DNA of 64,000 nucleotides from Halpernia frigidisoli (GTDB lineage Bacteria > Bacteroidota > Bacteroidia > Flavobacteriales > Weeksellaceae): the NCBI RefSeq assembly GCF_900113805.1, contig NZ_FOQT01000002.1, positions 310,001 through 374,000 on the forward strand. The letters run 5' to 3'. The stretch's first letter is position 1. Each line of letters begins with the position of its first letter. Below the pieces are notes generated by a model. That model made no database searches and was not told where the DNA came from. It was given only the letters and a program-made list of their open reading frames with translations. Made by a program: the position numbers and the translations under genes. This document shows, in pieces, positions 8,037 to 26,146 of the stretch.

Positions 8037-8141
8037 GTATGTAATATTTTATATATATTATTGATTATCAATATTTTAATAAGGTGAAAAATTTATTTAC
8101 TATGTTAGTTTTAGATGTTTTATGATAGTTTTGGATTTAAA

Positions 8142-8159
8142 TCGTGCGTTAATTCGTGC
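8142..8159. promoter_or_regulatory. Candidate integrase arm-type sites, left end
   Basis: Two direct copies of TCGTGC start at 8142 and 8154, 12 nt apart. The same arrangement and orientation occurs at the right end (26122 and 26134). This is the expected layout of arm-binding sites for a tyrosine integrase; the assignment is inferred. Confidence 0.5.
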
Positions 8160-8182
8160 ATTGAAATTATATGAATGGATAT

Positions 8183-9925
8183 CTAATTATTTGAAGAAAA
8201 AGTTAAATATAAATCACCATTCCGTAAAGTGCCATCTGACATAATTTCCCATTCAGTATTAGTTCTCTGAGGAGTGGTTATTGTCATTTTAATTTTATTT
8301 CCATCAAAAATAAATGTTCCACCACTTTTCCATTTAGATGAGTCTTGTATATCAGATGGATCAGATCCTAAAAAAGTTACAACAGTATGTTTTTGATTAA
8401 ACATTATATACATTGATGAGTAATTAGATATAGATGGATTCACTTTATAAATGCCAAATTTGAAATTATTATTTTGTTTTGGACTATCATTAGAAGTATT
8501 TAATTTAATACTCGCCTGTTTATCCGCTACTCCATTTTTGAAAACTAATTTTGTCATTGTTCCATTGTGGTAATAATTTACTAAGCCATCTATAACATCG
8601 TTATTAAAATTGCATTCCATTCTTTCTGTATCATCATCTGATTTTGGATAAAGAACAAAAGCACCCTCCTTAACTCCCTTCACATAGTTTCCGACACTCT
8701 TAATACCATCAATAATTAATGTTCCATTACCATTTTTTTCATTATTGGTGAATTTCCCATCATATATTGAACCATCTTTATAGTAAATCTTACCATCTCC
8801 ATCATCATTATTAATGAAGTTCGCATCAATTTTTTTTATATTTCCCCCGTCAGTTTTTGTGAGAATTCCTTTACCATAGAAATGACCTGTTGAATCAAAA
8901 GATCCGTCATAGATTAAATTTTTTCCTGTATATAATCCTTTTTTCATACGCCCCTTCTCGAATAACCCTTCAAAAGTATCTTTATCTGAATATGTCATGA
9001 TACCATAACCATCAGGCTCAAAATCAGTATTAAATTCACCTGAGTAAATATTCCCATTTTTAAATGTAAAAATACCTTTTCCATTAACTTTCTGATTAGA
9101 AAACTGTGCTTTTAAAGTCCCTATATCTGATGTTAGTGTACCATTTCCGTTAAATGAATTATCTTTCCATTCTCCATTATATTCCCAACCACCAAAATAT
9201 TTACCTATACCTACACCATTAATACTTCCTTTTAAAAAATCTCCAACATATATCAGATCTTTACTCGTATATTTCCCTTTTCCTTCCGAAAATCCAAGTT
9301 TAAATTCTCCTTCGTAAATATCTCCATTGAGGTACATTAATTTCCCATGTCCATTTGGTTGTAATCCTCCATAAGAGAATTCACCCTCATATTTGCTCCC
9401 TCCGTTTAATTTTAAATTCCCGAATCCTTTTTTACCGCCACTCTCCCAAGTAATTGAATATGAAGAAAATACTTCATTTAAACCTTTTTTATTTTCATCC
9501 GTATTAAAGAAATCCCCCGTTTCTAAACCAACCAAGAATCCATTTTGATATGTATAAGTTGATTTAGTAACTAAATCTGAATTAAAAAAAATTGATCTGT
9601 TTGATCGTCCTTCCATTATTCCATCTTTAAAAGTGGTTTGTATAACATTCAACTTAGATTTATTATCTGTATACATTTTGATAATACCATCCCCTTCAAC
9701 CAAACCTTTCTTACACTTTCCATCCCATTCTGAGTAAAGTGCAGGATCTGTAGAAGTTGTAAAAAATTTACATTCTTTATTGCCTTTCATGGCAATTCTT
9801 TCGGTTAATTTATTTTCTTGTGCGAAAATCGGTTTGGCAATTAGTAATGTAATAAGTGAAAACCCTATAAGACACTTCATAGTTAAATTTTTTTTTAAAA
9901 TATTATACATTTTTATTTTGACCAA
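8183..9925 (-). CDS. MORN-repeat protein, probably exported
   Basis: The protein has about 580 residues, with roughly a dozen MORN-type repeats of the form 'YxGxFxxGxxxGxGxxxxxxG' (for example 'GDIYEGEFKLGFSEGKGKY', 'GNIYSGEFNTDFEPDGYG', 'GSIYDGKFTNNEKNGNG'). A signal peptide begins at the internal Met encoded at 9880 (MKCLIGFSLITLLIAKPIFAQ); that start is more likely than 9925. The C-terminal ~100 residues are not repeats. MORN repeats form elongated beta scaffolds, and no catalytic domain is visible. It follows the WG-repeat gene by a few bases, so the two are probably one transcript. Confidence 0.8.
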   Translation of the reverse strand: MVKIKMYNILKKNLTMKCLIGFSLITLLIAKPIFAQENKLTERIAMKGNKECKFFTTSTDPALYSEWDGKCKKGLVEGDGIIKMYTDNKSKLNVIQTTFKDGIMEGRSNRSIFFNSDLVTKSTYTYQNGFLVGLETGDFFNTDENKKGLNEVFSSYSITWESGGKKGFGNLKLNGGSKYEGEFSYGGLQPNGHGKLMYLNGDIYEGEFKLGFSEGKGKYTSKDLIYVGDFLKGSINGVGIGKYFGGWEYNGEWKDNSFNGNGTLTSDIGTLKAQFSNQKVNGKGIFTFKNGNIYSGEFNTDFEPDGYGIMTYSDKDTFEGLFEKGRMKKGLYTGKNLIYDGSFDSTGHFYGKGILTKTDGGNIKKIDANFINNDDGDGKIYYKDGSIYDGKFTNNEKNGNGTLIIDGIKSVGNYVKGVKEGAFVLYPKSDDDTERMECNFNNDVIDGLVNYYHNGTMTKLVFKNGVADKQASIKLNTSNDSPKQNNNFKFGIYKVNPSISNYSSMYIMFNQKHTVVTFLGSDPSDIQDSSKWKSGGTFIFDGNKIKMTITTPQRTNTEWEIMSDGTLRNGDLYLTFSSNN

Positions 9926-9930
9926 TTTTT

Positions 9931-11364
9931 TTAAAAATTAAGTTCAAAACTTTTAATAACTTTATGATTTGAATCCTTCTGTAAAAGAGATCCTGAATCA
10001 GGATCAAAATAATTATACTCAAATGGTGCTATAACATTTCCTTTATCATCTATTGCACCCAAATTATCTCCAAGTTTAGCAATAAATAAGTCTTTCTTCT
10101 GTGTTTTTTGAATATCATCGTATTTTATTGGTATTACAATATCTCCATGTCTGTTAACTAAGCCACATTTATTATTTTTTATAACCTTTATATAATCATT
10201 GTTTAAAATTTGTAAAAGATCATATATTGGTAATACGAGAATCTTTCCTGTTTTATCAATTAATCCTCTTCTATTTTTAATAATAATTTCTGCTAACCCA
10301 TCTTCAAAACTACTACAATTATCAAAAGATGTAATAGGTATTATTTCTGTACCATACATATTTATATATCCACATTTTCCGTTTCTACTCACACTCGCTA
10401 TATCTTCACTAAAGTCTTGACAATATTGATAAATCTTCGGAACAATTACATCACCGTTTATATCAAAATAACCACATTTATCTCCAACTTGGACCCTTAA
10501 TAGACCTGAATTAAAGTGCCCAACAGAATTAAAAATATCTTTCTTAAAATCTTCACCTTTTAGATTAATTATCTTGTACCCATTATTTTCTTGTGTCGTA
10601 AACAAACCACCACCAATTCCCACAAGCGTACTATTATATTTAACAGGAAAAATTGTTTTGCCTTCATTATCTAAAATTCCATTTAACTTGCCATTTCTAA
10701 CATAAACATAAGGAGCATAATAAGAATAAATTTCATCATATATGGGTTTAGAAAGTTCTTTTCCATTAATGTCAAATAACATTTCTTTTTTATTTACTTT
10801 AAGTACTATATTATCACCTTGAACTTGTAAAAAGCCTCCTTCACCTTCATTAAAGTTTGTTTTATATTTCTTTTTTAAATCACTGATTAATTTTGGACTA
10901 ATATTACTCGAAATTACTGTTTTACCTATCTGTGACAAAATGAATTTTTTTTCTTCTTCGTTCCATTTTAAACTCAATTTTTTCCTCATAAAAAAAATAT
11001 CTTTTCCGAAGGATTCGTAGTACATATCATTGGGAAAAGTTATTAAATTACTTAAATCATACAAATCTCCATTTCGGGTGTCCAACATTTCAATAATAAA
11101 TTTTTCGGAACTAATTTTCTTTTTAACAATTTCGTAATTATAATAAAAGTTTGGCACACCTGTGAAAAATGGAACTTTGTTAATCTCCTCATATTTGATT
11201 ATATCACCACTTAAATCGTTATTGGTTAAAGCCTTATCATTAGGTTTTTTTATTCTTTTAAAATCTATGGATAATGCCATTTTTGGATTAACGATAGTTG
11301 ATAAATTATCCTGACCAAATGAAAAAAAGGGAATAATAACAAAAAGTATATTTTTAATTTTCAT
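9931..11364 (-). CDS. WG-repeat-containing protein, probably exported
   Basis: This 477-residue protein begins with a short signal peptide (MKIKNILFVIIPFFSFGQ). From about residue 180 on it has WG-like repeats of the type 'GKxGxIDxxGxxxIPxxYd', for example 'GKLNGILDNEGKTIFPVKYN', 'DKCGYFDINGDVIVPKIY' and 'NKCGLVNRHGDIVIPIKYDD'. These repeats build beta-rich scaffolds; no enzymatic site is visible. The N-terminal ~170 residues are unrecognised. It lies between the DUF6150 gene and the MORN gene as part of the island cargo. Confidence 0.82.
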   Translation of the reverse strand: MKIKNILFVIIPFFSFGQDNLSTIVNPKMALSIDFKRIKKPNDKALTNNDLSGDIIKYEEINKVPFFTGVPNFYYNYEIVKKKISSEKFIIEMLDTRNGDLYDLSNLITFPNDMYYESFGKDIFFMRKKLSLKWNEEEKKFILSQIGKTVISSNISPKLISDLKKKYKTNFNEGEGGFLQVQGDNIVLKVNKKEMLFDINGKELSKPIYDEIYSYYAPYVYVRNGKLNGILDNEGKTIFPVKYNSTLVGIGGGLFTTQENNGYKIINLKGEDFKKDIFNSVGHFNSGLLRVQVGDKCGYFDINGDVIVPKIYQYCQDFSEDIASVSRNGKCGYINMYGTEIIPITSFDNCSSFEDGLAEIIIKNRRGLIDKTGKILVLPIYDLLQILNNDYIKVIKNNKCGLVNRHGDIVIPIKYDDIQKTQKKDLFIAKLGDNLGAIDDKGNVIAPFEYNYFDPDSGSLLQKDSNHKVIKSFELNF

Positions 11365-11387
11365 GTATTTATTTTTAAATTATAATA

Positions 11388-11723
11388 TTAGTACATCAAT
11401 GCTTTTTTAGAAGAATTTCTCCACCCCGCTTGATTTTCATAATCCACAAAATAGATTTTTAGATCGGCTTGATTTTCATATTTCTCAAAATATATTTTCT
11501 TTTTCGCTTGATTGGAGTTATCTGTAAAAAACCACTTACCATCATTTTTTCCTGCTTGGTTTTCATACTTTTCTTTGTAAACCAATAAATCCGCTTGGTT
11601 TTCATTTTGTACAACAAATACTTTCACATCAGCCGAATTTTCTGAATTAGTTGAATATATTTTCTGAGCGTTTGAAATACTAAAAGTTAATAGGAGTATT
11701 GCAGTTAAAAATAGTTTTCTCAT
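11388..11723 (-). CDS. DUF6150-like secreted repeat protein
   Basis: The protein has 111 residues: a signal peptide (MRKLFLTAILLLTFSISNAQ) and then about five short units built on 'xENQAdlkvyxv' ('YENQAGKNDGKWFFTD', 'YENQADLKIYFVDYENQAG'). This is the pattern I associate with the DUF6150 family of Bacteroidota; its function is unknown. It lies 23 bp upstream of the WG-repeat gene on the same strand and probably starts that unit. Confidence 0.65.
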   Translation of the reverse strand: MRKLFLTAILLLTFSISNAQKIYSTNSENSADVKVFVVQNENQADLLVYKEKYENQAGKNDGKWFFTDNSNQAKKKIYFEKYENQADLKIYFVDYENQAGWRNSSKKALMY

Positions 11724-12043
11724 GATATTTTTTAGTAATTTTAATTAATTTAAAAATTTCATATACCTAAAGGATATTTAAAATGTAATTTTATGAACGC
11801 TAATGTAATATTTAAATTTAATAAAACTATAAAATTTTATTGTAATAATTTGATATTTAATACATAATAGACCTTAAAAGATACTAATAATTAAAAAAAA
11901 ATTTGAACTATTAAATTTTAGTTCTATTAATTCACAAGATTAACTCGAATTTTGATTTAGATTATAAGATGTGGGGTGACATTTCAGAGGAAGAGTTACA
12001 GAGATTTATTGAAACGGATTGTATGTAAAACAATAAAACATTT
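11724..12043. other. AT-rich divergent intergenic region with one tiny ORF
   Basis: The region separates the minus-strand secreted-repeat unit from the plus-strand genes. It is almost entirely A+T and should hold both promoters, but I see no complete consensus. A 19-residue ORF (11969-12028, MWGDISEEELQRFIETDCM) reads like protein and could be a remnant or a small gene; support is weak. Confidence 0.4.
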
Positions 12044-12325
12044 ATGGAGATATTTTCGGATCAGTTCGGACGGTGTATTTGGTTGGAGGTAAGTACATCA
12101 AAAATTAGAATGGATTTACAGGATTTATCTCCGACATCAGAATATGAAAGATGTGCAACTGTTCATAATACTGAAGAAGTATGTAAGGCTTTAGATGTGG
12201 ATATTGCTAAGGTGGAAGAAAGCCTTCACGATATGGTTAAGAATAAAAATAATGCCTTTGATATTTTTACCGATTTTTTAGATAAGCATAAAATTAAATT
12301 TGATTATTATTCGGGTCGGGGTTAA
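12044..12325 (+). CDS. Hypothetical protein (93 aa)
   Basis: This is a small acidic protein (MEIFSDQFGRCIWLEVSTSK...) with no recognised domain. It is soluble, with predicted helices in the C-terminal half ('VCKALDVDIAKVEESLHDMV'). The composition looks like real coding sequence. It is followed after 79 bp by a zinc-ribbon gene on the same strand; both belong to the island's accessory set. Confidence 0.5.
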   Translation: MEIFSDQFGRCIWLEVSTSKIRMDLQDLSPTSEYERCATVHNTEEVCKALDVDIAKVEESLHDMVKNKNNAFDIFTDFLDKHKIKFDYYSGRG

Positions 12326-12404
12326 AAGCCTATCTCACTTATTCTAATTTAGTGTCTAACCCTTGGAAAACGAACTTCTAAAAAACACATAAAAACTAAT
12401 TTAT

Positions 12405-12722
12405 ATGAAAACAATCTCTTTTACAGGAAAATGTCCCCAATGTGAATTATATGATGAAGAGTATTATATGAGAGAAAATGATAAGAATTTGGAATGTCCT
12501 AATTGCAATCTTATGATTTTGGTAGAAAATAATAAAGCATCAATATTAAGACATCGTGGAAAGGGACAACTTAACTTTAATTTTAATAAATTCAAAGGAA
12601 ATATCCCATACCAAGAAGTGGATCGAATTAGTTATCCGAACGGAAATATTTTAATTGAAAAGCATTTAATAAAATACTTACTATTAACCGTTAATCAAAA
12701 AGAAAAAGATTACAATAAATAA
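12405..12722 (+). CDS. Small zinc-ribbon-like protein
   Basis: The protein has 105 residues. Two CxxC knuckles ('KCPQCE', Cys10/13, and 'ECPNCN', Cys31/34) form a likely zinc ribbon at the N-terminus. The rest is lysine- and asparagine-rich and unrecognised. It could bind nucleic acid or protein, but the sequence shows only the probable metal site. Confidence 0.55.
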   Translation: MKTISFTGKCPQCELYDEEYYMRENDKNLECPNCNLMILVENNKASILRHRGKGQLNFNFNKFKGNIPYQEVDRISYPNGNILIEKHLIKYLLLTVNQKEKDYNK

Positions 12723-12780
12723 AATAAATTTGGTTTTCATTCTTATATTTTTTAAGATTTAATCAAAATACGGTTAAAGT

Positions 12781-13605
12781 TTACGGCACATCAGCACGAA
12801 TTTTTTCTGCGGTAACCAAATATTTATCTCTTTGTTTGTAAAGTTGTTCCCTGTACTTTAATTTCCAAGTAATGATTGAATCGGGATTACCATTTCCTAA
12901 ACTTGCACTACAATTTTGGTGAACCTCTCTTGCCTCATAAGTATTAGTAGCATTTCCTAAATCCCTTCTATAATTTTCGGCAATTCGGATAATTTCATTT
13001 GTTTTTTCTATATCTTGGTCAAGTCTTTTTAATTCTTTTATAGTAGGATCTAATAATTGATCGATTTTTTCTTTTTTCGGCTTAATCGCATCCAAACCGT
13101 TTTTCAACTTTTGTATTATTAACTCATTCTCACTTAGATCGTCTTTAACTTTGAAAATTTGCAAAGAATTATAGCGGTTAATTTCCGATTCTATAGTCGT
13201 TATTGATCCAAAATATTCAATCTTAGCCTTACCAATTTGCTCAATTTCTAAATAGAAATTCTCGATATTATTCTGCAACATTTTTACTTCAGCACGCAAG
13301 GAAATTTGAGATTTAGACAAGTAATATTTGGGGTTGAAACGAGATTTTATTTGGCTTCGGGTATTAACTTGCATTTTTGTTTTAATGATTATACTTGATT
13401 CTAAATTTTTAATTTCATTATCAGCACTGTCAATTTTATTAGTTAGTAATGAAATGTTTCTTATTTCATTTTCTAAATTGAATGATTTTTTAAATTCTAA
13501 ATGTGATTTAAGGATGCTATTATGCTTCAAAATGGAGTCAATTTTAAAATTAATATCATCTAAATATTTGTAGTTGGGGTTAAATATTCTAAAGTAATTT
13601 TTCAT
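12781..13605 (-). CDS. Coiled-coil hypothetical protein
   Basis: The 274-residue, highly charged protein is dominated by heptad-like helices (about 40-90 and 95-210). It has no signal peptide or membrane helix and no recognised domain. The C-terminal ~50 residues ('YEAREVHQNCSASLGNGNPDSI...') are not coiled-coil. It is convergent with the zinc-ribbon gene and next to the GC-rich hairpin region. Its function is unknown. Confidence 0.55.
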   Translation of the reverse strand: MKNYFRIFNPNYKYLDDINFKIDSILKHNSILKSHLEFKKSFNLENEIRNISLLTNKIDSADNEIKNLESSIIIKTKMQVNTRSQIKSRFNPKYYLSKSQISLRAEVKMLQNNIENFYLEIEQIGKAKIEYFGSITTIESEINRYNSLQIFKVKDDLSENELIIQKLKNGLDAIKPKKEKIDQLLDPTIKELKRLDQDIEKTNEIIRIAENYRRDLGNATNTYEAREVHQNCSASLGNGNPDSIITWKLKYREQLYKQRDKYLVTAEKIRADVP

Positions 13606-14179
13606 ATCAAGATTTTTTCAGGGTCATATAAAATTAATCAATTTTACAAAATTTTATTAACTTATATATCAAATAAATTTCGGAATTATGAAAATTTTCG
13701 GAATTCAGTAGATAAAGCCATTTCGAATGTCAAAAAATCAGAATAAATAATCGTTGTAAACCATAATATACTAATTTAATAAATCTAATTCTTTAACGAT
13801 TAGACTTAAAAGTTTAGTGAAATTTGACCAATAATCTCAAAAATAATTAAAAATATTTTTTTAGATTCTCAATTTTCGAAGGAAAAAATATAAAAATTTT
13901 TTTTACCATATTGACCCCCTTATACAAACCAATAAATTATACAGGCTCGGGAGAGAGAGGGGATTCCTCCACCCCTCTGACAGGGAGTCCCCCACCGTTT
14001 ATACAATTCTTATATTTTATTTAAGTTTTTTCACACTAAAAAATTTCGATCAATCTAACAATTAGTTCAAAACTCTCGCACTTTTTTTAGCGCATGTTGG
14101 TCTTCAAATGCGCGCAAAATTTTGTTTTGCTTAAGAGAATGAAGTGAAAAATATTAATGAACGCAGAACATTAAAATTA
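13606..14179. other. Non-coding gap with GC-rich hairpin cluster
   Basis: There is no supported ORF in these 574 bases. Most of the gap is very A+T-rich; the exception is the GC-rich block at 13949-13997, described separately. Confidence 0.5.
13949..13997. promoter_or_regulatory. GC-rich block able to form two exclusive hairpins
   Basis: A 7-bp stem (AGAGGGG 13956-13962 with CCCCTCT 13972-13978) competes with a second stem. The second pairs GGGGATTCCT (13959-13968) with AGGGAGTCCCC (about 13982-13992), using G-T wobbles. The block stands out in an A+T-rich gap. It could be an origin of transfer or replication, a recombination site or an RNA switch; nothing here decides between them. Confidence 0.45.
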
Positions 14180-14779
14180 TTATAATTTACAACCAATTTT
14201 ATTTTTCACTTTTTGAACAGTCGACGGACTAACATTACAAATTTTTGCTACATCTCTGATAGAAGTTCCCTTTTTTAAATTTTTTACGACCTCATGGTGT
14301 TTTTTATAAAAACTATCATCAGACTCGACAGACCCTTTTACACGACCTGTGTATCTATGTTGTGCTTTTGCTATGGCTATCCCGGCTTCTTGGATTTTGA
14401 GTAAATTTGACCGTTCCATTTCCGCAATATTTCCCATGACACTGACAATCAATTTGAAGGCTGAGTTTGGTTTACCTTTAATTAAACTTTCCAACCCTAA
14501 GTTATCAACCTTTAAATTTATTGCATATAAATTTAGTATTTCGATGTTGGATAAAATATCTATTAAGTTTCTTCCCAAGCGATCGATAGAACTGACTGTT
14601 AAATAATTAATCTTGTTATTTTTAATATCCTCGATAACTTTTTCTCCCATAGGTCTTTTGGAGAATGGCACCGCACCCGAAATTATATCGATGTATATTT
14701 TTTCATCAGGGTAAGACTTTTCAAGTTGCCTTGCCACATTCTGATTTCCCGTTGAAACCCGTACGTATCTTGCTTTCAT
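14180..14779 (-). CDS. Serine recombinase (resolvase/invertase family)
   Basis: This 199-residue protein is of the small resolvase type. The catalytic serine is Ser9 in 'RYVRVSTGNQNV'. The 'SIDRLGRNL' motif (about 64-72) and 'EMERSN' (120-125) carry the conserved catalytic Arg and Glu residues. The C-terminal helix-turn-helix ('GTSIRDVAKICNVSPSTVQKV', about 171-191) binds DNA. It could resolve island multimers or invert a segment. It is read toward the GC-rich hairpin block, and a perfect palindrome lies about 50 bp upstream. Confidence 0.9.
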   Translation of the reverse strand: MKARYVRVSTGNQNVARQLEKSYPDEKIYIDIISGAVPFSKRPMGEKVIEDIKNNKINYLTVSSIDRLGRNLIDILSNIEILNLYAINLKVDNLGLESLIKGKPNSAFKLIVSVMGNIAEMERSNLLKIQEAGIAIAKAQHRYTGRVKGSVESDDSFYKKHHEVVKNLKKGTSIRDVAKICNVSPSTVQKVKNKIGCKL

Positions 14780-15451
14780 ATAAATGCTTTAGGCTAAGTT
14801 AACGCTTAACGGCAGGTGTGCCAAATTTAGGGTACCCTTATTTGTAACATCTTATATGATTTGGTTTGGTATTGATGATATTATTTGCGTATTTAATATA
14901 GACTATAATCTAAAAATGGAGCAGACGTATTTTGCAGGATTTAATTTAGACCATCATCGTTGGGTTATAATAATATTTAAATTTGGGAGGGACATATCAT
15001 TAAACGAAATTCCTTCCTTACAATAAGGCAAAACAACTCACTTTTCACCCGTCGCAGAAAAAAATTAAATTATCTATTGATTTCAGGGTCAGGTCAATGT
15101 TTTTTAGGCACATCAATTCTTTGTTGCTCTTCATTTTCCACCTCTCACCTATATTAATTAAGCACTTGTTTAGTTTTTAGTTTTAAATCCTAATAAGTTC
15201 ATTTTCGCCACGTACGACAAAAAGTGTTGTTTAATTTTGAAATTCTACTATGAAAGTACAGTCTTTACATGGAATAAATTAATTCTTCTTTGCTATTATC
15301 AATTCTTGATCGTGAAACTATTTTATTAATAAAATATATGTTTCTCGGATAAATTTATCCCTGTATTTGGTATTAAAATTTATTTTCTTTATATTTTATC
15401 TATCTGACAATCAATATAATATAACAATAAATTCATTATATAAATTTAAAA
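14780..15451. other. Non-coding gap between recombinase and polymerase-like gene
   Basis: These 672 bases contain no supported ORF. They hold the palindrome at 14829-14838 and otherwise A+T-rich sequence. This divergent region should carry the promoters of both flanking genes, and a resolution site or origin would fit here. Confidence 0.4.
14829..14838. promoter_or_regulatory. Palindrome upstream of the serine recombinase
   Basis: The sequence AGGGTACCCT is a perfect 10-bp palindrome, with CAAAT on its left and ATTTG on its right giving an imperfect dyad of about 23 bp. It lies about 50 bp upstream of the recombinase start. It is a candidate crossover site or autoregulatory operator. Confidence 0.35.
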
Positions 15452-17119
15452 ATGGCTAAATATTATCAACCTGTAAACTTCATTGTCCCTGACAATATTG
15501 ATTACAATCGAATCTTCGGAAAAATCGAAGAACACTTAACTGCGAGACGTATAAAAAAAGTGAAACCTAAAAAAGTAACGCCCACGCAAATTAAAAGAGT
15601 ACAAGAGGCGATTTACCTATTCCTGTCATACTTGTATCCTGATGAAAATTTTGAACTTAAATATGGAGAAAGAAGTTTTTGGAAAGGGATAATCTCACGA
15701 GAGTTTAGTGATATTACGGATAAATTAAAAACTACAGTGGTTGATCTCTTAACTGATCCCAAATATCCTATAATTGATGAAAATAAGAGTTATCAGCCAA
15801 ATAAATATAGTAAATCTTATCGCTTAAGATTAGATTTTTGTATTGGTGGTTGTCCGCCCAGGGCTGTCACAATACAGTCGTGTATTTCCCGTAATTATTT
15901 GGCAAAAGTTACCGCTCAACCTCTCTATTTTGATCATGCAACGGTGGTTGGTAATGAAGGGTTCGACTATCTCCTCAATCAGTATGATACTTCTATATTA
16001 ACCATTGATGATGAGGTTGATGATTTTATTAAAAATTATAAGGAATTACTTGATAGTAAACTAAGTAATTTAAATAGAACAGATAAGAAGGAATGGCTAA
16101 CAAAAAAAAGTGAAGATAAAATTAAAAATTTATTATCAATTGTTTCAAAAATTCGTGGTGGTGAATTCAATGAATTCGTTCATAAAAATAATGGAAGGTT
16201 ATATTCACTACCAACTTATTGTGATGAGATAATAAGAAAATTTATAAAAATTAAAGATAGTAGAAATCTCGTTGAAATAGATATATGTAATAGTCATCTT
16301 TACATGTTAGCATCAATATTAGATAAAAACTTTATTTATAATAAAAAAGATAATTTTTCTTTATTTAAATTAAAACAAAACTATTTTAATATCTTAAGTA
16401 ATAATTTAAATGAATCAAGATTTGGTCGTATAATAATTTCTAATCAAATTAAATATAAATCTAAATCAATATCATTATATAATAATTCAATGCTATTATA
16501 TATGTTGGGGATTTTTGATAATAATGATATAAATGAATATAGATCATTGCCTTTTTCCGAAGGAGTTTACGAGTTCGTTGATCAAACTTTGTTCGACGGA
16601 GAGAAAGGAAGAGGGTATGTTAAAAATAGCGTTATGATGCTCTTAAACTTAAAAAATCAGAGGAATAGGAATTCTTTTATAACGACTATGAGTAGGAGGT
16701 ATCCAACCGTTTCTGATATTATTGAGATGATTAATGGTTACAAAGGAGATCTTAGGAATTTATCAACTTTATTACAACGTGTGGAGTCCTACTTATTTTT
16801 AGAGGTTGGTATTAAAAATGTTCTAAGTGAAATTCCTGATCTTAATTTCATTACCGTCCATGATTCAATAATAGTAGATGAATCTTACGCCAACGAGATA
16901 AAGGAAATTCTCTGTAAATCTATCAAATTAGTTACGGGTTTGCCAATTGGTTTTAAAATAAAACCAATACTTAATCCAATGGATACAATCGAAAAAATAG
17001 TTGATGAAAGTTGGTTAACTATGTTGAAGCGGTACAGAAAGTATAGGAGAGACGAAAACAAGAACAGAAAGGAGTGCAATCGTACAAAACGCTCGAATAC
17101 CAAAAAACATACAATATAA
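15452..17119 (+). CDS. Divergent single-subunit polymerase-like protein (family A / T7 RNAP-like palm)
   Basis: The protein has 555 residues. Three motifs occur in the order and spacing of a family A palm: 'LVEIDICNSHLYMLA' (Asp277, motif A position), 'GRGYVKNSVMMLL' (Arg387-x3-Lys391, motif B, close to the T7 RNA polymerase R-x3-K-x2-VM pattern) and 'FITVHDSIIV' (His470-Asp471-Ser472, motif C, HDS as in T7 RNA polymerase). 'NNGRLYSLPTYCDEIIRKFI' precedes motif A, as in related phage proteins. No exonuclease domain is visible; the N-terminal ~240 residues are unrecognised and the C-terminus is very basic. It may copy the island's own DNA. The polymerase assignment is inference from motifs. 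Confidence 0.5.
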   Translation: MAKYYQPVNFIVPDNIDYNRIFGKIEEHLTARRIKKVKPKKVTPTQIKRVQEAIYLFLSYLYPDENFELKYGERSFWKGIISREFSDITDKLKTTVVDLLTDPKYPIIDENKSYQPNKYSKSYRLRLDFCIGGCPPRAVTIQSCISRNYLAKVTAQPLYFDHATVVGNEGFDYLLNQYDTSILTIDDEVDDFIKNYKELLDSKLSNLNRTDKKEWLTKKSEDKIKNLLSIVSKIRGGEFNEFVHKNNGRLYSLPTYCDEIIRKFIKIKDSRNLVEIDICNSHLYMLASILDKNFIYNKKDNFSLFKLKQNYFNILSNNLNESRFGRIIISNQIKYKSKSISLYNNSMLLYMLGIFDNNDINEYRSLPFSEGVYEFVDQTLFDGEKGRGYVKNSVMMLLNLKNQRNRNSFITTMSRRYPTVSDIIEMINGYKGDLRNLSTLLQRVESYLFLEVGIKNVLSEIPDLNFITVHDSIIVDESYANEIKEILCKSIKLVTGLPIGFKIKPILNPMDTIEKIVDESWLTMLKRYRKYRRDENKNRKECNRTKRSNTKKHTI

Positions 17120-17200
17120 ATTATAAAATAGATTGTAAAAAATATTTAATTTTGATTATCAAGAAATTATAAAAAAATATAAGCAGTAATACATTTTAAT

Positions 17201-17231
17201 TTTGTACGGTAAATAAATTTTTATATCTTTG
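17201..17231 (+). promoter_or_regulatory. Bacteroidota promoter (TTTG-N19-TAnnTTTG)
   Basis: TTTG at 17201-17204 and TATCTTTG at 17224-17231 are separated by 19 bases. This is an exact match to the Bacteroidota -33/-7 consensus. Transcription should begin near 17238, a short leader before the ATG at 17251. Confidence 0.75.
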
Positions 17232-17250
17232 CATCATTATAATTAATCAT

Positions 17251-17955
17251 ATGACTGTTCCTTCTTTGTCTGAAGTTAAATCGCTTCTTAATCAACCAAT
17301 TAAAAAAGGTTATTTTTTTGTTGGCTTAAAACTGAAAGAAATAAAAGGTTTACGAACCGATGAGATCAGTAACTTACTTTCTGATCCGAATAACAATGAT
17401 TTTAGTGTAAATAACTATCATAAAGAAATTGAACACGAAAAGAAAAGACTTTGCAATGAAATGGAAGTTTTTTATAATGATCCTTTTATAGTAGAAACTT
17501 TCTGTAAGGATGGTTTGTCAATGACAAATATTTTTGAGCAAACTAAAAAGAAAATGATTCAAGTCGAAAGAATGAATTTATTATTAGAACCTAAGATCAC
17601 CGAATCAATTCTCAAGAAAAAACCCTACGACGTTGAATATCTTCGAGCAAGAATTGTATGGTTAGATGATGATGGTAAGAAAAACTTAAACAATACAAAA
17701 ATATTTGGTAGAAGTGGTGAGATGAATTCCTTACTTCTACTTGAAAAAATGGTTAGAGAAAGAATGAATGGTAAGAACATAATATCGGAAGTTGACGTAA
17801 AGACCAAAGACGGCAAGTTCAGTGCTGATTTAATTGCAGAAATTGATGGGGAACAGTGGGTGTTTGAAGCAAAAATTACTTCACGAAAAGAGTATATTAT
17901 TGATTCTGTGCGTTTTCATCTTTGGGAATTATACAAAAAAACATATCTAATATAA
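17251..17955 (+). CDS. Hypothetical protein with C-terminal PD-(D/E)XK-like motif
   Basis: This 234-residue protein has no whole-length family that I recognise. The last quarter contains 'FSADLIAEIDGEQWVFEAKI', with Asp193 followed by Glu206-x-Lys208. This is the D...ExK arrangement of PD-(D/E)XK nucleases, in strand-turn-strand context. The N-terminal ~130 residues are helical and charged. It has its own strong promoter and terminator. A nuclease role is plausible but not shown. Confidence 0.6.
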   Translation: MTVPSLSEVKSLLNQPIKKGYFFVGLKLKEIKGLRTDEISNLLSDPNNNDFSVNNYHKEIEHEKKRLCNEMEVFYNDPFIVETFCKDGLSMTNIFEQTKKKMIQVERMNLLLEPKITESILKKKPYDVEYLRARIVWLDDDGKKNLNNTKIFGRSGEMNSLLLLEKMVRERMNGKNIISEVDVKTKDGKFSADLIAEIDGEQWVFEAKITSRKEYIIDSVRFHLWELYKKTYLI

Positions 17956-17968
17956 AACTAAAAACTAT

Positions 17969-17988
17969 AGGTTAAAAACCTTTTTTTT
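17969..17988 (+). terminator. Rho-independent terminator
   Basis: A short AGGTT/AACCT stem with an AAA loop is followed by a run of eight T. It lies 14 bases after the stop of the preceding gene. Confidence 0.65.
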
Positions 17989-18201
17989 GCACAATTTTCA
18001 TGTTGTACAATTATTAAGTGTACTACAATTCAGTTTTTGAGACACCTTAAAGAGGTAACATAATGACAAAAAAATATAAATATATAAACTAAAAAATAAA
18101 ATGGTAAGAATACGAAGCCCCGTAAGAAAATAGAATTTGATTTTCATCTCAATACGGATAAATTAATTCCTGAAACTAAATTTGAATTAGTACAAACAAA
18201 T

Positions 18202-18645
18202 TTGGTAGAATCAAAATTTCATAAGTACAGAAATATTAAAAATAAAAAAAAATTAAATATGAGTTATTTTATAAAAGGGACGCATAATAGTCCATTCAAC
18301 GGCTTAAATGCCACAATGATAATTAGCGAACTACCAAATTCGTTTGTTGGTGTATCCGATTTAAATAAGGCGGTATATGTATATCGACTTATGTTGAGAG
18401 AAGTGTACATGTCTGAATATGGGCATTTAAATGATACTGAAATATCTTCAGAAATACTGATGGAAAGAAATTCTTGGTGTCATAAAATGGTGTATGAATT
18501 AGTTAATCAGTACGAGTTATTGTTAAACGATGATGATGAAATTATAATTTTAAATAATCACTACGAATTATCAGATTTAATCGAGTGTATACCTAATGGT
18601 TCTCGAGTAGAATTTAATGAAATTATGGTAATCAAAATACCTTAA
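18202..18645 (+). CDS. Hypothetical protein, start uncertain
   Basis: The protein has up to 147 residues and no recognised domain. The frame is open back to a stop at 18097, but the only start codons are TTG at 18202 and ATG at 18259. The upstream in-frame bases read like protein ('KPRKKIEFDFHLNTDKL'). At 18101 the sequence ATGGTAAG would put an ATG in this frame if one G were added (ATGGGTAAG). The gene may therefore have lost its start by a 1-nt deletion. A clear terminator follows. Confidence 0.5.
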   Translation: MVESKFHKYRNIKNKKKLNMSYFIKGTHNSPFNGLNATMIISELPNSFVGVSDLNKAVYVYRLMLREVYMSEYGHLNDTEISSEILMERNSWCHKMVYELVNQYELLLNDDDEIIILNNHYELSDLIECIPNGSRVEFNEIMVIKIP

Positions 18646-18660
18646 TAGGGTTGGCAAATT

Positions 18661-18697
18661 AAAAACAAAGCCGTAGAATAGCCTACGTCTTTGTTTT
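18661..18697 (+). terminator. Rho-independent terminator
   Basis: AAACAAAG and CGTAG pair with CTACG and CTTTGTTT to form a long hairpin with one internal mismatch, ending in a T-run. It separates the upstream hypothetical gene from the excisionase-integrase pair. Confidence 0.8.
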
Positions 18698-18723
18698 ATT
18701 AAAATTTAAAAATAAAAAATAAA

Positions 18724-18936
18724 ATGAGAGAACAAAGATTCATGGATATGAAATCCATAGTAGAATACATTCCGCTAAAAACATCAACAATTTATACAAT
18801 GGTATGTAAACAAACTATTCCGTTCGATAAAATTGGGGGGAAATTGATTTTCGATCGAATTGAAATTGATGAGTGGGTAAAAGGCGGTAGGACAAGAAAA
18901 AATAAACTTCCCAAATTAATTAAAATAAAGAAATAA
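18724..18936 (+). CDS. Excisionase-like helix-turn-helix protein
   Basis: The 70-residue protein has the MerR/excisionase-type HTH pattern 'MDMKSIVEYIPLKTSTIYTMVCKQTIPFDKIGGKLIFDRIEIDEWV': a helix-turn-helix followed by a wing and the 'F.r..ideWi' ending. It sits 2 bp upstream of the tyrosine integrase gene. It probably acts as recombination directionality factor or as integrase regulator. Confidence 0.8.
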   Translation: MREQRFMDMKSIVEYIPLKTSTIYTMVCKQTIPFDKIGGKLIFDRIEIDEWVKGGRTRKNKLPKLIKIKK

Positions 18937-18938
18937 AT

Positions 18939-20150
18939 ATGGCTACCTGTAAAGTGGTATTAGACACCCGTCAGATTGACAAAAAAAATGAACATAATTT
19001 AGCTATCGAGGTTAATTTTGGGAAGAATAAATGTTTCCTGAACATAGGTAAAATGACAAAAGATCTATACAGTGAAGTATTCTCCAAAAAATCTGCGAAC
19101 AACGATAATTTAGATTTCAAAAAAGAATGTCAGGAATATTTGTATCGTGCTGAAGAAATAATAAATGATATGCTAATATTTGACCGTCAACTTCTAAGGG
19201 AACTTTTTTATAATGAAAAACAAAGTAAAAATAGAGATTCTTTAAAGGTGGTGGATTTATTTGATAATTATTTTACAGACAAATCTAATCTTGCGGTTAG
19301 AACAATTTCTAAAATGAATCAGTCTAAAAACACCATTGTAGGTGATAATAAAGAAATGACCATTTTAGAGATTGATAAAGATTTTTTAGATGATTTTCAA
19401 AAAACAAGATTGAAGTTAGGTAACTCAGATAATTATGTGAGTGGAATTTTCAGAGATCTAAGGGCGGTAATAAATTATTTCACTAAAACAAAAAAAATAA
19501 TTCCTTTAAATTATAAATACCCGTTTGGTGCTGATGGTTTTAAAATATGTAATTCCTTTACCAAGAAAGATGTATTAGATGAAGAGGATATTAAACGGTT
19601 TCTTAATTATAATTATTTTAAAAATAAGCAGGAAGAATATGCACGGGATACTTGGGAACTACTTTACTTGTGTAACGGAATAAATTATGCAGATTTACTA
19701 AGACTAAGATGGGATCAGAAAAAAGATAACTGTTTTAAATTTTTTAGAAAAAAAACGGAGAATACCCGTAAAAATCATAAACAAAAAATCGTTGTTCCTA
19801 TTACAGAACGGATTCAAAATTTATTAAATAAAGTAGGTGACACAGAAAGTCAATTTGTTTTAGGAAAACTTGTTGATAATTATACGGCTCAATATTTTGA
19901 GAACAAACTTCATAAATACCAAGGTAAAATAAATAAAAATCTTCGTGCCATTTCAATAAAATTAGATTTACGAATTGAGATGACCTTAAGTAAGGCAAGA
20001 GATTGTTATGCTACAACATTAAACAGAAATGATATACCAATCAGTAGGATTTCCGAAATGTTGGGTCATTCTAATACCGCCGTAACTCAGCATTATTTAG
20101 GTTCGATGGATATTGATAAATTATTTGAAGTCAACTCAGTTTTGGTATGA
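18939..20150 (+). CDS. Tyrosine recombinase (site-specific integrase)
   Basis: The protein has 403 residues: an N-terminal arm/core-binding region (about 1-205) and a C-terminal catalytic domain. Arg354 ('SKARDCYATTL'), 'EMLGHSNTAVTQHYLG' with His377, and nucleophile Tyr386 are clear. The first catalytic Arg position ('LCNGINYADLLRLRW') appears to be Asn249, and the His of the HxxR box is Ser351. The substituted first Arg resembles the IntDOT-type integrases of Bacteroidota. It should catalyse integration and excision at tRNA-Phe. The excisionase-like gene is immediately upstream. Confidence 0.9.
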   Translation: MATCKVVLDTRQIDKKNEHNLAIEVNFGKNKCFLNIGKMTKDLYSEVFSKKSANNDNLDFKKECQEYLYRAEEIINDMLIFDRQLLRELFYNEKQSKNRDSLKVVDLFDNYFTDKSNLAVRTISKMNQSKNTIVGDNKEMTILEIDKDFLDDFQKTRLKLGNSDNYVSGIFRDLRAVINYFTKTKKIIPLNYKYPFGADGFKICNSFTKKDVLDEEDIKRFLNYNYFKNKQEEYARDTWELLYLCNGINYADLLRLRWDQKKDNCFKFFRKKTENTRKNHKQKIVVPITERIQNLLNKVGDTESQFVLGKLVDNYTAQYFENKLHKYQGKINKNLRAISIKLDLRIEMTLSKARDCYATTLNRNDIPISRISEMLGHSNTAVTQHYLGSMDIDKLFEVNSVLV

Positions 20151-20181
20151 GGTAATTTTTTTTACAACAGTTTAGTTGCGG

Positions 20182-20198
20182 AACATTTAACAAATGTT
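20182..20198. promoter_or_regulatory. Inverted repeat upstream of the restriction-modification gene
   Basis: AACATTT-AAC-AAATGTT is a perfect inverted repeat with 7-bp arms, 24 bases before the start codon at 20223. It is a candidate operator controlling the restriction enzyme. No dedicated controller protein gene is seen next to it. Confidence 0.4.
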
Positions 20199-20222
20199 TA
20201 TTTTTATTGTTTAAATTTAAAC

Positions 20223-23222
20223 ATGTTCCAAAAAACTATAATTTCCAAGTATCTAAAAACGCAAAACAAAGATAATCTCATTTCTCAATGGGATCTTTTT
20301 TGTGCCCACTTCCAAAATCTGCAGGTACAGGAAAATATTAAAAATTCTAAAGAGGAACAATATCAGGAAGGGTTTTTTAGAGATTTATTTGTAAATATTT
20401 TCGGTTATACTTTAAATCCCACAATCGGTTTTAATCTCACCACAGAATATAAAAACGTTAAGGACAGTAAAAAGGCGGACGGTGCAATTATCATTGAAGA
20501 TAAAGTTATTGCCGTTATAGAACTTAAAGGAACAAACACAACTGACCTTGGTAAGATTGAAGAACAGGCATTCAATTATAAAAACAACCAAAGTGGATGC
20601 ACCTATGTAATTACATCTAACTTTGAAAAGATTAGGATTTACATAGATGATTCGGTAACCTTCTTAGAATTTAATCTTTTCAGCCTAAAACAAGAAGATT
20701 TTAATCTACTCCACTTACTTCTATCATTCGATAATATTAAAAACAATATTCCCAAGAAAATTAAGGAGGAATCTCTAAATCAGGAGGATATTGTTACCAA
20801 AAAATTATACAATGATTACTCCGTATTTAAACGGGAATTGTTTCAAAATCTAACACTTTTAAATCCCGAACACGATCCATTAAAATTATTTCAAAAATCT
20901 CAAAAATTATTGGATAGACTTCTTTTTCTTTTTTTTGGTGAAGATCGAGGGCTGCTTCCACCCAACTCTGTAAGACAAATCTTGGATCAATGGGATAAAT
21001 TAAAAGAAATGGATGCCTATGATCCACTTTATAATCGTTATAAAAAATATTTCGGATACCTGAATACAGGTTTTAAAGGGAAAAACCACGATGTTTTTGC
21101 ATACAATGGTGGACTTTTTAAGGATGATGAAGTTTTAGATAACATTAAGATTGATGATGATCTACTTTATAACCACACCTTCAGATTGTCTCAGTATGAC
21201 TTCGCAAGTGAAGTTGATGTTAATATTTTAGGACATATTTTTGAAAATTCCCTTAATGAGATTGATGAGATTAAGGCACAGTTGGAAGGCAGTGAAGTTG
21301 ATAAATCTAAAACCAAGAGAAAAAAAGACGGTGTGTTTTACACGCCAAAATATATCACCAAATACATTGTTGAGAATACGGTCGGTAAACTTTGTGAGGA
21401 AAAGAAAACCGATTTTAAAATTATTGAAGAAGATTATTTCACAGATAAAAAAAGACAACAAAAGACCAAAGAAAATCTTTTAGGTAGATTGGATGAGTAC
21501 CGTAAATGGTTATTACAAATTACGATTGTGGATCCGGCGTGCGGATCGGGTGCATTCCTAAATGAAGCATTAAATTTCCTTATTACGGAACACCAATACA
21601 TTGATGAGTTGGAAGCGAAACTATTGAATGTGCCAATTATCTTTAGTTACCATTCTGAAAGTATTTTAGAGCATAATCTGTTTGGAGTTGATCTTAATGA
21701 AGAATCTGTTGAGATCGCAAAACTATCACTTTGGTTACGGACGGCAGAACCAAACAGAAAACTTAACAGTTTGAATGATAATATTAAATGTGGAAATTCT
21801 TTAATTGATGATCCTGAAATTGCGGGGGAAAAAGCGTTTAATTGGGAGCAAGAATTTCCTTTTGTTTTTAGTAAAGGTGGTTTTGATGTAGTTATTGGTA
21901 ATCCCCCGTATGGTGCAGAACTCTCTAATAAGGAATGGCTTAAAAAAAAATATTCTAAAACAAGTTTCGGCAATATTGATTCATATAAGTATTTTGTTCA
22001 ATTGGGAGTTCAAATTACCAAAGAAAATGGTACGTTGAGTTATATTATGCCCGATTCATATATTGAAAAAGAATACTTTAAAGATTTAAGGATTTTTATT
22101 TCAAATTGTTTCAAAAATATTTATAATGTGAAACTTGGAGATGATGTCTTTGATGAAGTTAACTTACCTACCGCCATAATTATTTTACAAAGTAAGTCGA
22201 AATGTGATACAAATTTCTTTTATCTTGATTTGTCAAAAGTAAATTTAGTAGATAAATTAAATAAATTGTTGGAAAATAATAATTACTTAACAAGTTTCCC
22301 AAATTACGAAAATTCTTTTGTTGTGTTAAATAGCATAATAAAAACAAAAAACACAACTCCATTAATAGAGTTATATGATCAAGTTATGGGAGTTAAAGTA
22401 TATCAAAAAGGAAAAGGTAAACCAAAACAGACAAATTTTGAAATTGATAATGATGTTTTTATCTCTAAGATTAAATCTGATGAGTTCAATTACAATTTTA
22501 TATCTCAAGGAATCAGAAGATATAATTATGACACTCAAAACGAATTTATAAAGTATGGCGAATGGTTAGCGGAACCAAGAAATGTTGAATATTTTGATAA
22601 TCCCAAAATAGTAATAAGAGAAATAATAAATCCTACAATATTCGCAACTTACATAGAAGAAAAATCAGTCGTGAAAAATATTGCGGCGGTAATAATTGAG
22701 AAAACAGATAATTATCCTTTAAAATATTTACTTCCTATTCTAAATTCTAAATTAATCAATTTTTATGTTAACGAACAATCACCCAAAAGCAGTAATAAAA
22801 GTTATCCAAGTTTTAATAGTAAACTTCTCAAGAATATACCGATTGTTAAATCTAATGAAAATGTAAAGTCTAAATTAATTAATCTTTGTAATCACATTTT
22901 AAAATTACATTCTGATCTAAAAATCGAATATGAAAAATTCTATAAAACTTTAGAGAGAGAATTTCTAATAAAAATTCTCTCAAAAAAATTACAGAGTTGG
23001 TATCATTTATCTTACAATGATTTCTTATTAGAACTTAAAAAACAAAAAGTAGTACTTACATTATCCCAAAAGGCGGATTGGGAAACCTACTTTGAACAGG
23101 AGAAAAATAAAGCATTACAAATTCAATCTCAGATCACCACTACAGATCAGGAAATAGATCAAATGGTTTACCAACTATACGGGTTGACGGAAGAAGAAAT
23201 TGGGATTGTGGAGAACAATTAA
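20223..23222 (+). CDS. Type IIG restriction-modification enzyme (Eco57I-like)
   Basis: This 999-residue single-chain enzyme has three parts. The N-terminal nuclease carries 'ADGAIIIEDKVIAVIELKG' (Asp86, Glu100-x-Lys102), a PD-(D/E)XK site. The central N6-adenine methyltransferase has the SAM motif 'DPACGSGAFLNEAL' (about 437-450) and catalytic 'NPPY' (560-563). The C-terminal ~350 residues probably recognise the DNA target. Such enzymes cut foreign DNA outside their site and methylate one host strand. The DUF2971 gene starts 2 bp after its stop, so the two are co-transcribed. Confidence 0.92.
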   Translation: MFQKTIISKYLKTQNKDNLISQWDLFCAHFQNLQVQENIKNSKEEQYQEGFFRDLFVNIFGYTLNPTIGFNLTTEYKNVKDSKKADGAIIIEDKVIAVIELKGTNTTDLGKIEEQAFNYKNNQSGCTYVITSNFEKIRIYIDDSVTFLEFNLFSLKQEDFNLLHLLLSFDNIKNNIPKKIKEESLNQEDIVTKKLYNDYSVFKRELFQNLTLLNPEHDPLKLFQKSQKLLDRLLFLFFGEDRGLLPPNSVRQILDQWDKLKEMDAYDPLYNRYKKYFGYLNTGFKGKNHDVFAYNGGLFKDDEVLDNIKIDDDLLYNHTFRLSQYDFASEVDVNILGHIFENSLNEIDEIKAQLEGSEVDKSKTKRKKDGVFYTPKYITKYIVENTVGKLCEEKKTDFKIIEEDYFTDKKRQQKTKENLLGRLDEYRKWLLQITIVDPACGSGAFLNEALNFLITEHQYIDELEAKLLNVPIIFSYHSESILEHNLFGVDLNEESVEIAKLSLWLRTAEPNRKLNSLNDNIKCGNSLIDDPEIAGEKAFNWEQEFPFVFSKGGFDVVIGNPPYGAELSNKEWLKKKYSKTSFGNIDSYKYFVQLGVQITKENGTLSYIMPDSYIEKEYFKDLRIFISNCFKNIYNVKLGDDVFDEVNLPTAIIILQSKSKCDTNFFYLDLSKVNLVDKLNKLLENNNYLTSFPNYENSFVVLNSIIKTKNTTPLIELYDQVMGVKVYQKGKGKPKQTNFEIDNDVFISKIKSDEFNYNFISQGIRRYNYDTQNEFIKYGEWLAEPRNVEYFDNPKIVIREIINPTIFATYIEEKSVVKNIAAVIIEKTDNYPLKYLLPILNSKLINFYVNEQSPKSSNKSYPSFNSKLLKNIPIVKSNENVKSKLINLCNHILKLHSDLKIEYEKFYKTLEREFLIKILSKKLQSWYHLSYNDFLLELKKQKVVLTLSQKADWETYFEQEKNKALQIQSQITTTDQEIDQMVYQLYGLTEEEIGIVENN

Positions 23223-23224
23223 AA

Positions 23225-23995
23225 ATGAGTAAATTTTACAAATATAGAGGCAATGTTGATTTACAATCAATAGATGGTAAAAAACTGTTAGATAGAGACG
23301 TTGAGTCTATTTACTATAGTTATATGTGGTTTTCCGATTTAGAGTCTTTAAATGACAAGAATGAGGGTTTACATAGTTTAGATAAATTCAAGGATAATGT
23401 TGATGGTGTAACTAAGTTAATGGATGTCTTGAATTTAAAAAAACATGACGACGAAGTTAATAATGATTATTTAATGGCAGTTAAGAATGCAATAAATTTA
23501 CATAAAAAGTTGGTGGGGATTTTTTCCTTAACAACTGATAATCTTAATAATTTGATGTGGTCACATTACGCTAACTGCCACAAAGGATATTGCATTGAAT
23601 ATGAATTTAATAAATTGGCTGATCTTAAATTAAATGAATTAAACTGTTCTTCCCTAAAAGATTTCGATAGTTTCGAAAAGGTAATATATGATAATAAAAT
23701 TTTTGAACTCACCGATGTGAATTTTTCACCAAAAGATTTCAAAAAAATAATAATACGTAAAACAAAAGAGTGGTCATACGAGAAAGAGTTTCGGATAATA
23801 TCAAAAGTTTGCGGTTCTTACCAACATGAACCAACCATTATTAAATCAATAGTTTTTGGCATCTCTTCTTCAGAAGATGTCAAGACTTACATTATGGAAA
23901 AATTACAATATAAAGAAATAGAGTTTTTTCAGTTAAGAAGAGAAAAATATAACAGTTTAAAATTTATACGTGAAAAAATAAATTTTTCAATTTAA
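23225..23995 (+). CDS. DUF2971 domain protein
   Basis: The 256-residue protein shows DUF2971 features: 'FYKYRG' at the start, 'WFSDLESLNDKNEG' and the core 'FSLTTDNLNNLMWSHYANCHKGYCIEYEF' (about 100-130), then 'EWSYEKEFRII'. DUF2971 proteins are common in phage-defence neighbourhoods, but their activity is not established. It is coupled to the type IIG gene (2-bp gap), which suggests a joint role. Its end overlaps the convergent Mrr-like gene by 4 bp. Confidence 0.8.
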   Translation: MSKFYKYRGNVDLQSIDGKKLLDRDVESIYYSYMWFSDLESLNDKNEGLHSLDKFKDNVDGVTKLMDVLNLKKHDDEVNNDYLMAVKNAINLHKKLVGIFSLTTDNLNNLMWSHYANCHKGYCIEYEFNKLADLKLNELNCSSLKDFDSFEKVIYDNKIFELTDVNFSPKDFKKIIIRKTKEWSYEKEFRIISKVCGSYQHEPTIIKSIVFGISSSEDVKTYIMEKLQYKEIEFFQLRREKYNSLKFIREKINFSI

Positions 23996-24707: not shown

Positions 24708-24752
24708 TTCGACAGTTTTTTTGTAAATTTATTCAAATATACAAATTAGAAA

Positions 24753-26139: not shown

Positions 26140-26146
26140 ATAGTGC

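Follow-up and report, generated by a model that had tools for sequence, protein, structure and literature searches.

The TV-Pol family was defined by Iyer, Abhiman and Aravind in 2008 for polymerases that possess the family A core without a nuclease domain and are marked by an arginine hairpin and by RxxxK in the fingers (PMC2579912). A subset of TV-Pols has an N-terminal domain, resolvase or integrase genes adjoin the polymerase genes, Bacteroidetes are among the members and an association with a D5-like helicase belongs to one subset only; the same paper predicted that TV-Pols are primase-polymerases. CcPol of SCCmec, together with its partner MP, has been demonstrated to be a primase that primes DNA synthesis de novo, and CcPol retains the steric-gate glutamate, according to the available sections of PMC7581432. 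The authors of that 2020 paper stated, in the same sections, that to their knowledge no other member had been biochemically characterised, and we found no biochemical work on any member of the subfamily in the literature.

The window analysed in this study is a stretch of 64,000 nucleotides from Halpernia frigidisoli (contig NZ_FOQT01000002.1). One of its genes probably encodes a TV-Pol-type polymerase that resembles family A, lacks an exonuclease and is competent in catalysis, as predicted from motifs and fold, and the gene belongs to a mobile element of ~18 kb inserted at a tRNA-Phe gene (Table 1). An earlier note on this DNA had suggested that the island may replicate by an undescribed mechanism, which was overstated, as elements that combine a TV-Pol with resolvase and integrase have been known since 2008 (PMC2579912) and CcPol-MP was shown to be a primase in the sections of PMC7581432 cited above. 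The polymerase is real and divergent, but of a known, neglected kind, and the class of tRNA-inserted Bacteroidota elements is a more interesting outcome than the polymerase itself.

Table 1. Features of the element, in nucleotide positions of the window, and parts of the polymerase, in residues
Feature	Position	Strand	Remarks
attL, original tRNA-Phe 3' end, now displaced	7993..8036		direct repeat, 44 nt
Integrated element body	8037..26188		18.24 kb with both att repeats included
Small serine recombinase, gamma-delta resolvase type	14180..14779	-	199 aa; PF00239 E 2e-19; HTH_7 E 5e-8
Intergenic region, resolvase to polymerase gene	14780..15451		divergent gene pair
Predicted TV-Pol-type family A polymerase	15452..17119	+	555 aa, ATG start
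Polymerase: N-terminal domain	residues 1-155
Polymerase: thumb helices	residues 188-235
Polymerase: template arginine	residue 249
Polymerase: motif A	D277
Polymerase: fingers	R387/K391
Polymerase: LQxxE	residues 441-445
Polymerase: motif C	H470-D471-S472
Protein behind the polymerase	17251..17955	+	234 aa; no convincing Pfam/PHROG match
Tyrosine integrase	18939..20150	+	403 aa; PF00589 E 4e-11; phrog_1 integrase E 5e-20
Cargo: probable type IIG restriction-modification enzyme (Eco57I-like)	20223..23222	+	999 aa
attR, element-borne 3' end completing tRNA-Phe	26189..26232		direct repeat
tRNA-Phe (gaa), integration target	26189..26262	-

Motifs, predicted fold and family of the polymerase

The open reading frame of 555 residues was confirmed to contain EIDICNSH (D277), R387-x3-K391-NSVMM and VHDS (D471) at the positions that the earlier note had claimed. 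Among 137 distinct relatives (at least 340 aa, with identical rows and shorter hits removed), R249, D277, K391 and E445 were each conserved in 136, D471 in 135 and H470 in 133, while position 387 was Arg in 114 and Lys in 17; the polymerase motifs are not due to chance, because they are conserved across nearly all these relatives. In the alignment A1 of 30 sequences, R249, D277, S281, Y373, K391, P418, L441, Q442, E445, H470 and D471 were invariant. The protein by itself matched nothing in Pfam, PHROG, NCBIfam or PADLOC, so no exonuclease domain was detected, which bears out the earlier reading on this point. Eight of the 30 relatives matched phrog_4756, a phage family of unknown function, and weak scattered Pfam matches were found in a few of the 30 (best E 2e-4, 3 of 30); two sequence searches of the PDB gave a single insignificant match each (E 0.3 and E 0.16). 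The gene is present in one copy only in the host genome, which has its own PolA at G000:C3:163544.

The AlphaFold2 model of the protein, computed with A1 as the alignment, had a mean pLDDT of 80.9, and Foldseek ranked family A DNA polymerases at the top (E 1.9e-6); the best viral match was a protein of 409 residues (E 4e-17). VIA-align gave its best Z of 16.2 with the apicoplast PolA and T7 DNA polymerase (268-272 residues aligned, 3.4-3.6 Å), and the aligned region falls in model residues 168-508, with both D277 and D471 inside. The structural comparison that had been suggested for this protein thus returned a family A palm fold. The best 50 VIA rows of the whole model were all family A DNA polymerases; T7 RNA polymerase is missing from these 50 rows, which is uninformative taken alone. 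The N-terminal ~240 residues had been left unassigned in the earlier note, and the model places a predicted domain and two thumb-like helices there. The features by which TV-Pols are known could be followed along the model: a predicted two-helix coiled-coil thumb (188-205 and 210-235), an arginine hairpin before motif A, with R249 between or beside short model strands (242-243 and 250-251), a palm with two catalytic aspartates, as suggested by the conservation of D277 and D471 and the predicted family A fold, and the RxxxK of the fingers.

Profile comparison was conducted against several polymerase families. The first TV-Pol set had four members, namely MAP_030 of phage Ma-LMM01, one protein of a Calothrix plasmid and those of two Polaromonas plasmids; MAP_030 was taken as the TV-Pol of Ma-LMM01 on the grounds of its motifs and of the transposase genes next to it, an assignment of the present analysis. 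The profile of these four scored 37.0 against the family of the island protein, with a weak match in the palm (100 column shuffles gave at most 22.4 and unrelated controls 12.1-20.1), and the N-terminal half was unmatched, 48 of 60 shuffles being equally good. A search of 296 genomes of the phylum sample with the TV-Pol profile added two more members, both from Bacteroidota, and the window's own genome gave no match at E 0.01. The resulting profile of six TV-Pols scored 80.6 (60 column shuffles at most 19.9), or 49.6-76.3 when any single member was dropped, and the N-terminal domain alone scored 40.3 against it (shuffles at most 14.6, 0 of 60 as good). Scored directly by HMM, the six TV-Pols fared poorly: L218 (L numbers are our handles for loci) reached 13.9 bits and the other five at most 4.4. 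In phage Ma-LMM01 the family profile had no hit up to an E of 10. Both outcomes, like the missing match in the own genome and the first comparison with four members, speak against the TV-Pol reading. The divPolA2 set, five proteins including CoeS as a weak hit, scored 83.2 (at most 23.8 in 100 shuffles), which rose to 87.9 when this doubtful protein was left out (at most 26.7 in 60 shuffles). For five T7-like RNA polymerases the score was 34.6 (at most 23.7 in 60 shuffles); 13 PolA sequences reached 27.9, which barely exceeds the shuffles, one of 100 being equally good. The ranking of TV-Pol, divPolA2 and T7-like scores is a rough one, because profile depths differ between the families compared; judged by these scores, the palm is about equally near to TV-Pol and divPolA2, and the N-terminal domain ties the protein to TV-Pol. 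By sequence comparison, it appears to be a very divergent polymerase of the known, little-studied TV-Pol family.

T7 RNA polymerase as the nearest relative was rejected, its profile score standing against 80.6 for TV-Pol and 83.2-87.9 for divPolA2, and bacterial PolA was likewise set aside as a sequence relative. The earlier statement that motifs B and C are closest to T7 RNA polymerase is not supported by that score or by the VIA rows of the whole model. The weak divPolA2 relative CoeS, from phage PV206818 (L200, 343-1905), has the motif A DYCSLH, which looks more TV-Pol-like than that of AUR84708. CoeS may possibly be a link between TV-Pol and divPolA2.

In the PolA compared, motif A is DYSQIE, with a glutamate five residues past the catalytic aspartate; in PolA this residue keeps ribonucleotides out. 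The same position past D277 was Gln in 132, His in four and Thr in one of the 137 relatives, and never Glu, and it was His or Gln in the six TV-Pols and Gly in T7 RNA polymerase. Under a register gapped by two residues, as given by one low-confidence profile alignment, the position would be Tyr or Phe in 112 of 137 and again Glu in none. The loss of the glutamate may relax the exclusion of ribonucleotides.

Together with the HDS of motif C, the missing glutamate would also suit an enzyme that makes RNA, either a single-subunit RNA polymerase transcribing the element or an RNA primase for it, in place of a DNA polymerase. The N-terminal domain (1-165), modelled alone with a pLDDT of 82.9, had no significant Foldseek match, and its best VIA rows were T7 RNA polymerase (Z 5.8 over 121 residues, and 5.4) and mitochondrial RNA polymerases (4.7-5.1); its modelled likeness to single-subunit RNA polymerases is a hint only, as the tool itself rates values of Z below 8 as uninformative and the scores are nearly equalled by those of winged-helix regulators (4.8). 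The available sections of PMC11348598 propose the phage relative divPolA2 as a possible RNA polymerase. We nevertheless regard this alternative as unlikely, considering that the top fold rows of the whole model are DNA polymerases and that the N-terminal sequence fits TV-Pol and not the T7-like RNA polymerases, for which no profile match to this part was found (6 of 60 shuffles as good, against none for TV-Pol).

Borders and contents of the element

The element that carries the polymerase is bounded by 44-nt repeats which are 91% identical. The empty site is represented by the congeneric genome G243, where 369 bp with an intact tRNA-Phe separate the flanking genes. The attL is 95% and the attR 86% identical to the 3' end of this tRNA-Phe, as would be expected if the attR copy had arrived with the element. 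The Rfam search over 7900-26400 found tRNA only. The central proposal of the earlier note, namely that an integrative island bears a divergent palm polymerase of the single-subunit type, which perhaps replicates it, is supported by the predicted fold, the att repeats and the empty site. One could also regard the gene as a decayed, inactive relic on a fixed island, as it has a single genomic copy and the att repeats have either drifted or come from different tRNA alleles. This seems very improbable to us, because the frame is full-length, all catalytic residues are intact and strongly conserved over the 137 relatives, and the island is absent from the congeneric genome.

The serine recombinase that had been pointed out on the island is indeed present, but a tyrosine integrase is also there, and the latter, not the small serine resolvase, is likely the mobility enzyme. 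With resolvase and integrase both on the island, the neighbourhood is that by which TV-Pols are known (resolvase, lambda-type integrase or transposase). A GC-rich hairpin block next to the polymerase had also been reported; the GC richness is real (49% at 13900-13999, against 17% and 25% in the adjoining 100-bp windows), but the block lies 1.45 kb upstream, past the resolvase gene. As an origin this block was rejected, 52 of 200 shuffles folding at least as stably. Of the sequence that separates the resolvase and polymerase genes, the 76 nt preceding the resolvase start (14780-14855) were 83% conserved in L204, and the whole region folded in no unusual way (9 of 20 shuffles at least as stable); it is a possible res site or replication-start region.

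The C-terminal DLIAEIDGEQWVFEAK of the protein behind the polymerase resembles, by eye only, a PD-(D/E)xK nuclease motif, and the ORF at 18202 had no convincing family match in Pfam or PHROG. None of the eight island proteins scanned gave a helicase match above the cut-off. By tblastn, 12 loci were found to encode relatives of the 999-aa cargo protein. Between attL and the resolvase (8183-11723 of the window) there are a MORN-repeat protein, a WG-repeat-like protein, whose WG match comes from the pooled scan only, and a short protein with ENQA-like repeats.

Relatives of the polymerase and their elements

Relatives were found in 38 of 320 genomes of the host's family and, by profile search, in 15 of 395 genomes of the phylum sample, the own genome included in both. 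When genome contigs were scanned with a sub-alignment headed by L013, 162 pattern matches were obtained and 150 relatives confirmed, of which the best 80, ranked by likeness to L013 and not to the protein of the window, were inspected as loci. All of these 80 with taxon-naming titles are Bacteroidota. Viral contigs gave 20 loci and 18 loci on partly shared contigs by the broader searches, and no relative when searched with the single protein.

Among the best 80 of 150 loci, a tRNA gene was present in 58 and lay within 3 kb of the polymerase gene in 49, where about five would be expected by chance (as reckoned from 35 tRNA genes in the 3.02 Mb of the window's genome), and an integrase lay within 500 bp of the tRNA in 51. 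Duplicated tRNA ends bounded nine elements of 7.8-18.2 kb including that of the window, the eight others being 7.8-14.4 kb; these eight are the loci with a far copy of the tRNA 3' end among 57 genome-contig loci having a tRNA. This count omits L076 and the tRNA-His genes of five loci, and near copies or tandem tRNAs (L059, L063, L111, L115) and 5'-side hits (L099, L101) were set aside; within the 10-kb flanks, no att copies were found in the remaining loci, nor in L202 and L204. Such elements recur at tRNA genes in Bacteroidota, and in a literature search judged by its results overview we recognised no description of them.

The five closest elements (L202-L206) all have a related small resolvase near the polymerase gene (32-72% identity), and a resolvase of this kind was found in none of the 122 other loci searched. 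Over the 20-kb stretch, two of the five contain a tmRNA gene and the other three lack both tRNA and tmRNA. The tmRNA genes, a common integrase target, lie at 17712-18112 in L202 and at 7331-7728 in L204.

Family scans were pooled for 87 of the 94 non-polymerase ORFs of the nine elements. These 87 proteins included nine integrases, five DUF3871 proteins, five AAA_24 ATPases, four RadC proteins and two Eco57I matches, the Eco57I and type IIG models matching 2 of the 87 as a pooled count. The matches listed (25 of 71 PHROGs) held no structural phage family and one primase/helicase PHROG. One of the smallest elements, L125 (8.2 kb), has the integrase, the polymerase and six ORFs of at most 160 aa.

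Alternatively, the polymerase could be a cargo enzyme that serves DNA repair or defence and is distinct from the replication protein of the element, in keeping with the restriction genes on elements of this kind, with the regular DNA polymerase near some phage relatives and with the repair role proposed for divPolA2 in the available sections of PMC11348598. We consider it rather improbable, even more so than the RNA polymerase reading, given that the gene keeps company with an integrase in 61 of the best 80 of 150 loci while the other neighbours vary (DUF3871 in 30, an AAA_24 ATPase in 26, a small HTH protein in 19), and that PADLOC gave nothing convincing on 30 members of the family (best E 0.0097).

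Several further observations were made on these loci. DUF3871 accompanies the AAA_24 ATPase in 25 of 26 loci, and in L055, L056, L058, L064, L072 and L074 the DUF3871 and AAA_24 (Sak4-like) genes adjoin and are divergent from the polymerase gene. In the Bacteroidales elements L051/L138, L120 and L109 a protein of 680-780 aa precedes the polymerase, and the 726-aa protein of L051 has no Pfam match and looks helicase-like by eye. On plasmids of 7-35 kb (L053 from Hymenobacter, L181, L196 and L180), the gene of a family member or TV-Pol is accompanied by one for a serine recombinase or resolvase, and one Rufibacter contig (L132) holds several partial or full copies of the family. A gene that clusters with a canonical family A polymerase lies near a family member in five of 38 viral loci, not all independent (L139, L140, L142, L143, L149); L140 and L142 hold the same protein, and the PF00476 match was established for the L140 copy.

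In a tree of 129 rows, made by a quick method and having long branches, the phage label changed 11 times, at least four changes being forced by well-supported branches, and shuffled labels gave a mean of 18.9 changes, none of 500 as low as 11; phage and chromosomal genes are thus clustered, yet do not form single clades. The IMG/VR 'viral' contig L138 and the Dysgonomonas genome locus L126 have the same family protein and the same positions of the neighbouring integrase, and because they coincide some viral records may be integrated elements and not phages.

Proposed working and comparison with known systems

The polymerase most likely primes and copies the excised element. The tyrosine integrase would excise the element as a circle, and the N-terminal domain may hold DNA at the element's origin or on a single-stranded template, where the palm would start and extend strands without the host primase, as the context of TV-Pols and the example of CcPol-MP suggest. 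The small serine resolvase, which is paired with the polymerase in this subclade, may resolve multimers or joined copies, and the circle would finally reinsert at the tRNA 3' end. The polymerase need not be the sole replicase, because the plasmids that carry a relative (Hymenobacter) or a TV-Pol (two Polaromonas plasmids) bring their own replication proteins too, and an auxiliary role is suggested in viral loci by the canonical PolA near five of 38. A bolder reading is that of family A counterparts of pipolins, widespread self-replicating islands inserted at tRNA genes of Bacteroidota, each driven by one self-priming polymerase that, its steric gate lost to Gln or His, could start strands with ribonucleotides and would choose its start site by the N-terminal domain; we hold it to be doubtful at present, and if true, these enzymes would in function be intermediate between DNA polymerase I and the RNA polymerases of T7 type. 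The window supplies a well-bounded Bacteroidota element whose att sequences and empty site are defined and whose polymerase has its catalytic residues intact, which makes the self-priming of a mobile element by a family A enzyme and the use of ribonucleotides after the loss of the steric-gate glutamate testable.

As compared to housekeeping DNA polymerase I, the island protein shares the predicted palm, fingers and thumb fold, but it has no detected exonuclease domain and no steric-gate glutamate, and the PolA profile is hardly above shuffles. With TV-Pol (PMC2579912) it shares the predicted thumb, the template arginine hairpin, the palm aspartate pair, the RxxxK fingers and the lack of a nuclease domain, as well as the N-terminal domain, the neighbouring gamma-delta resolvase and integrase, the occurrence in Bacteroidetes and the Gln or His at D+5; it differs in being too divergent for a direct match to the TV-Pol profile and in that the islands sit at tRNA genes, the word 'tRNA' being absent from the main text of the 2008 paper. 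The divPolA2 of barbaviruses and other phages (Virol J 2024, PMC11348598, available sections) is likewise a palm polymerase without exonuclease and matches by profile, but it is phage-borne there, whereas a chromosomal element with att sites and an empty site was found here; the divPolA2 AUR84708 has Glu at motif A D+5 and its relative CoeS seems to have His, as against Gln, His or Thr here. The PolA-SSB primases and CcPol-MP have the family A palm and the integrative element in common with the island, the primase function being shown or predicted there, in the sections available of PMC7581432 and PMC10061031; according to the same sections CcPol keeps the equivalents of E710 and F762 and uses an OB-fold partner and a helicase, neither of which was identified on the island. 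The pipolins with their piPolB, as presented in the available sections of PMC7385651, share the insertion at tRNA genes, the att repeats, the tyrosine recombinase, the frequent restriction genes and an own DNA polymerase, which is of family B in pipolins and of predicted family A fold here. The islands resemble pipolins in which a predicted family A enzyme, encoded beside the integrase, replaces that of family B.
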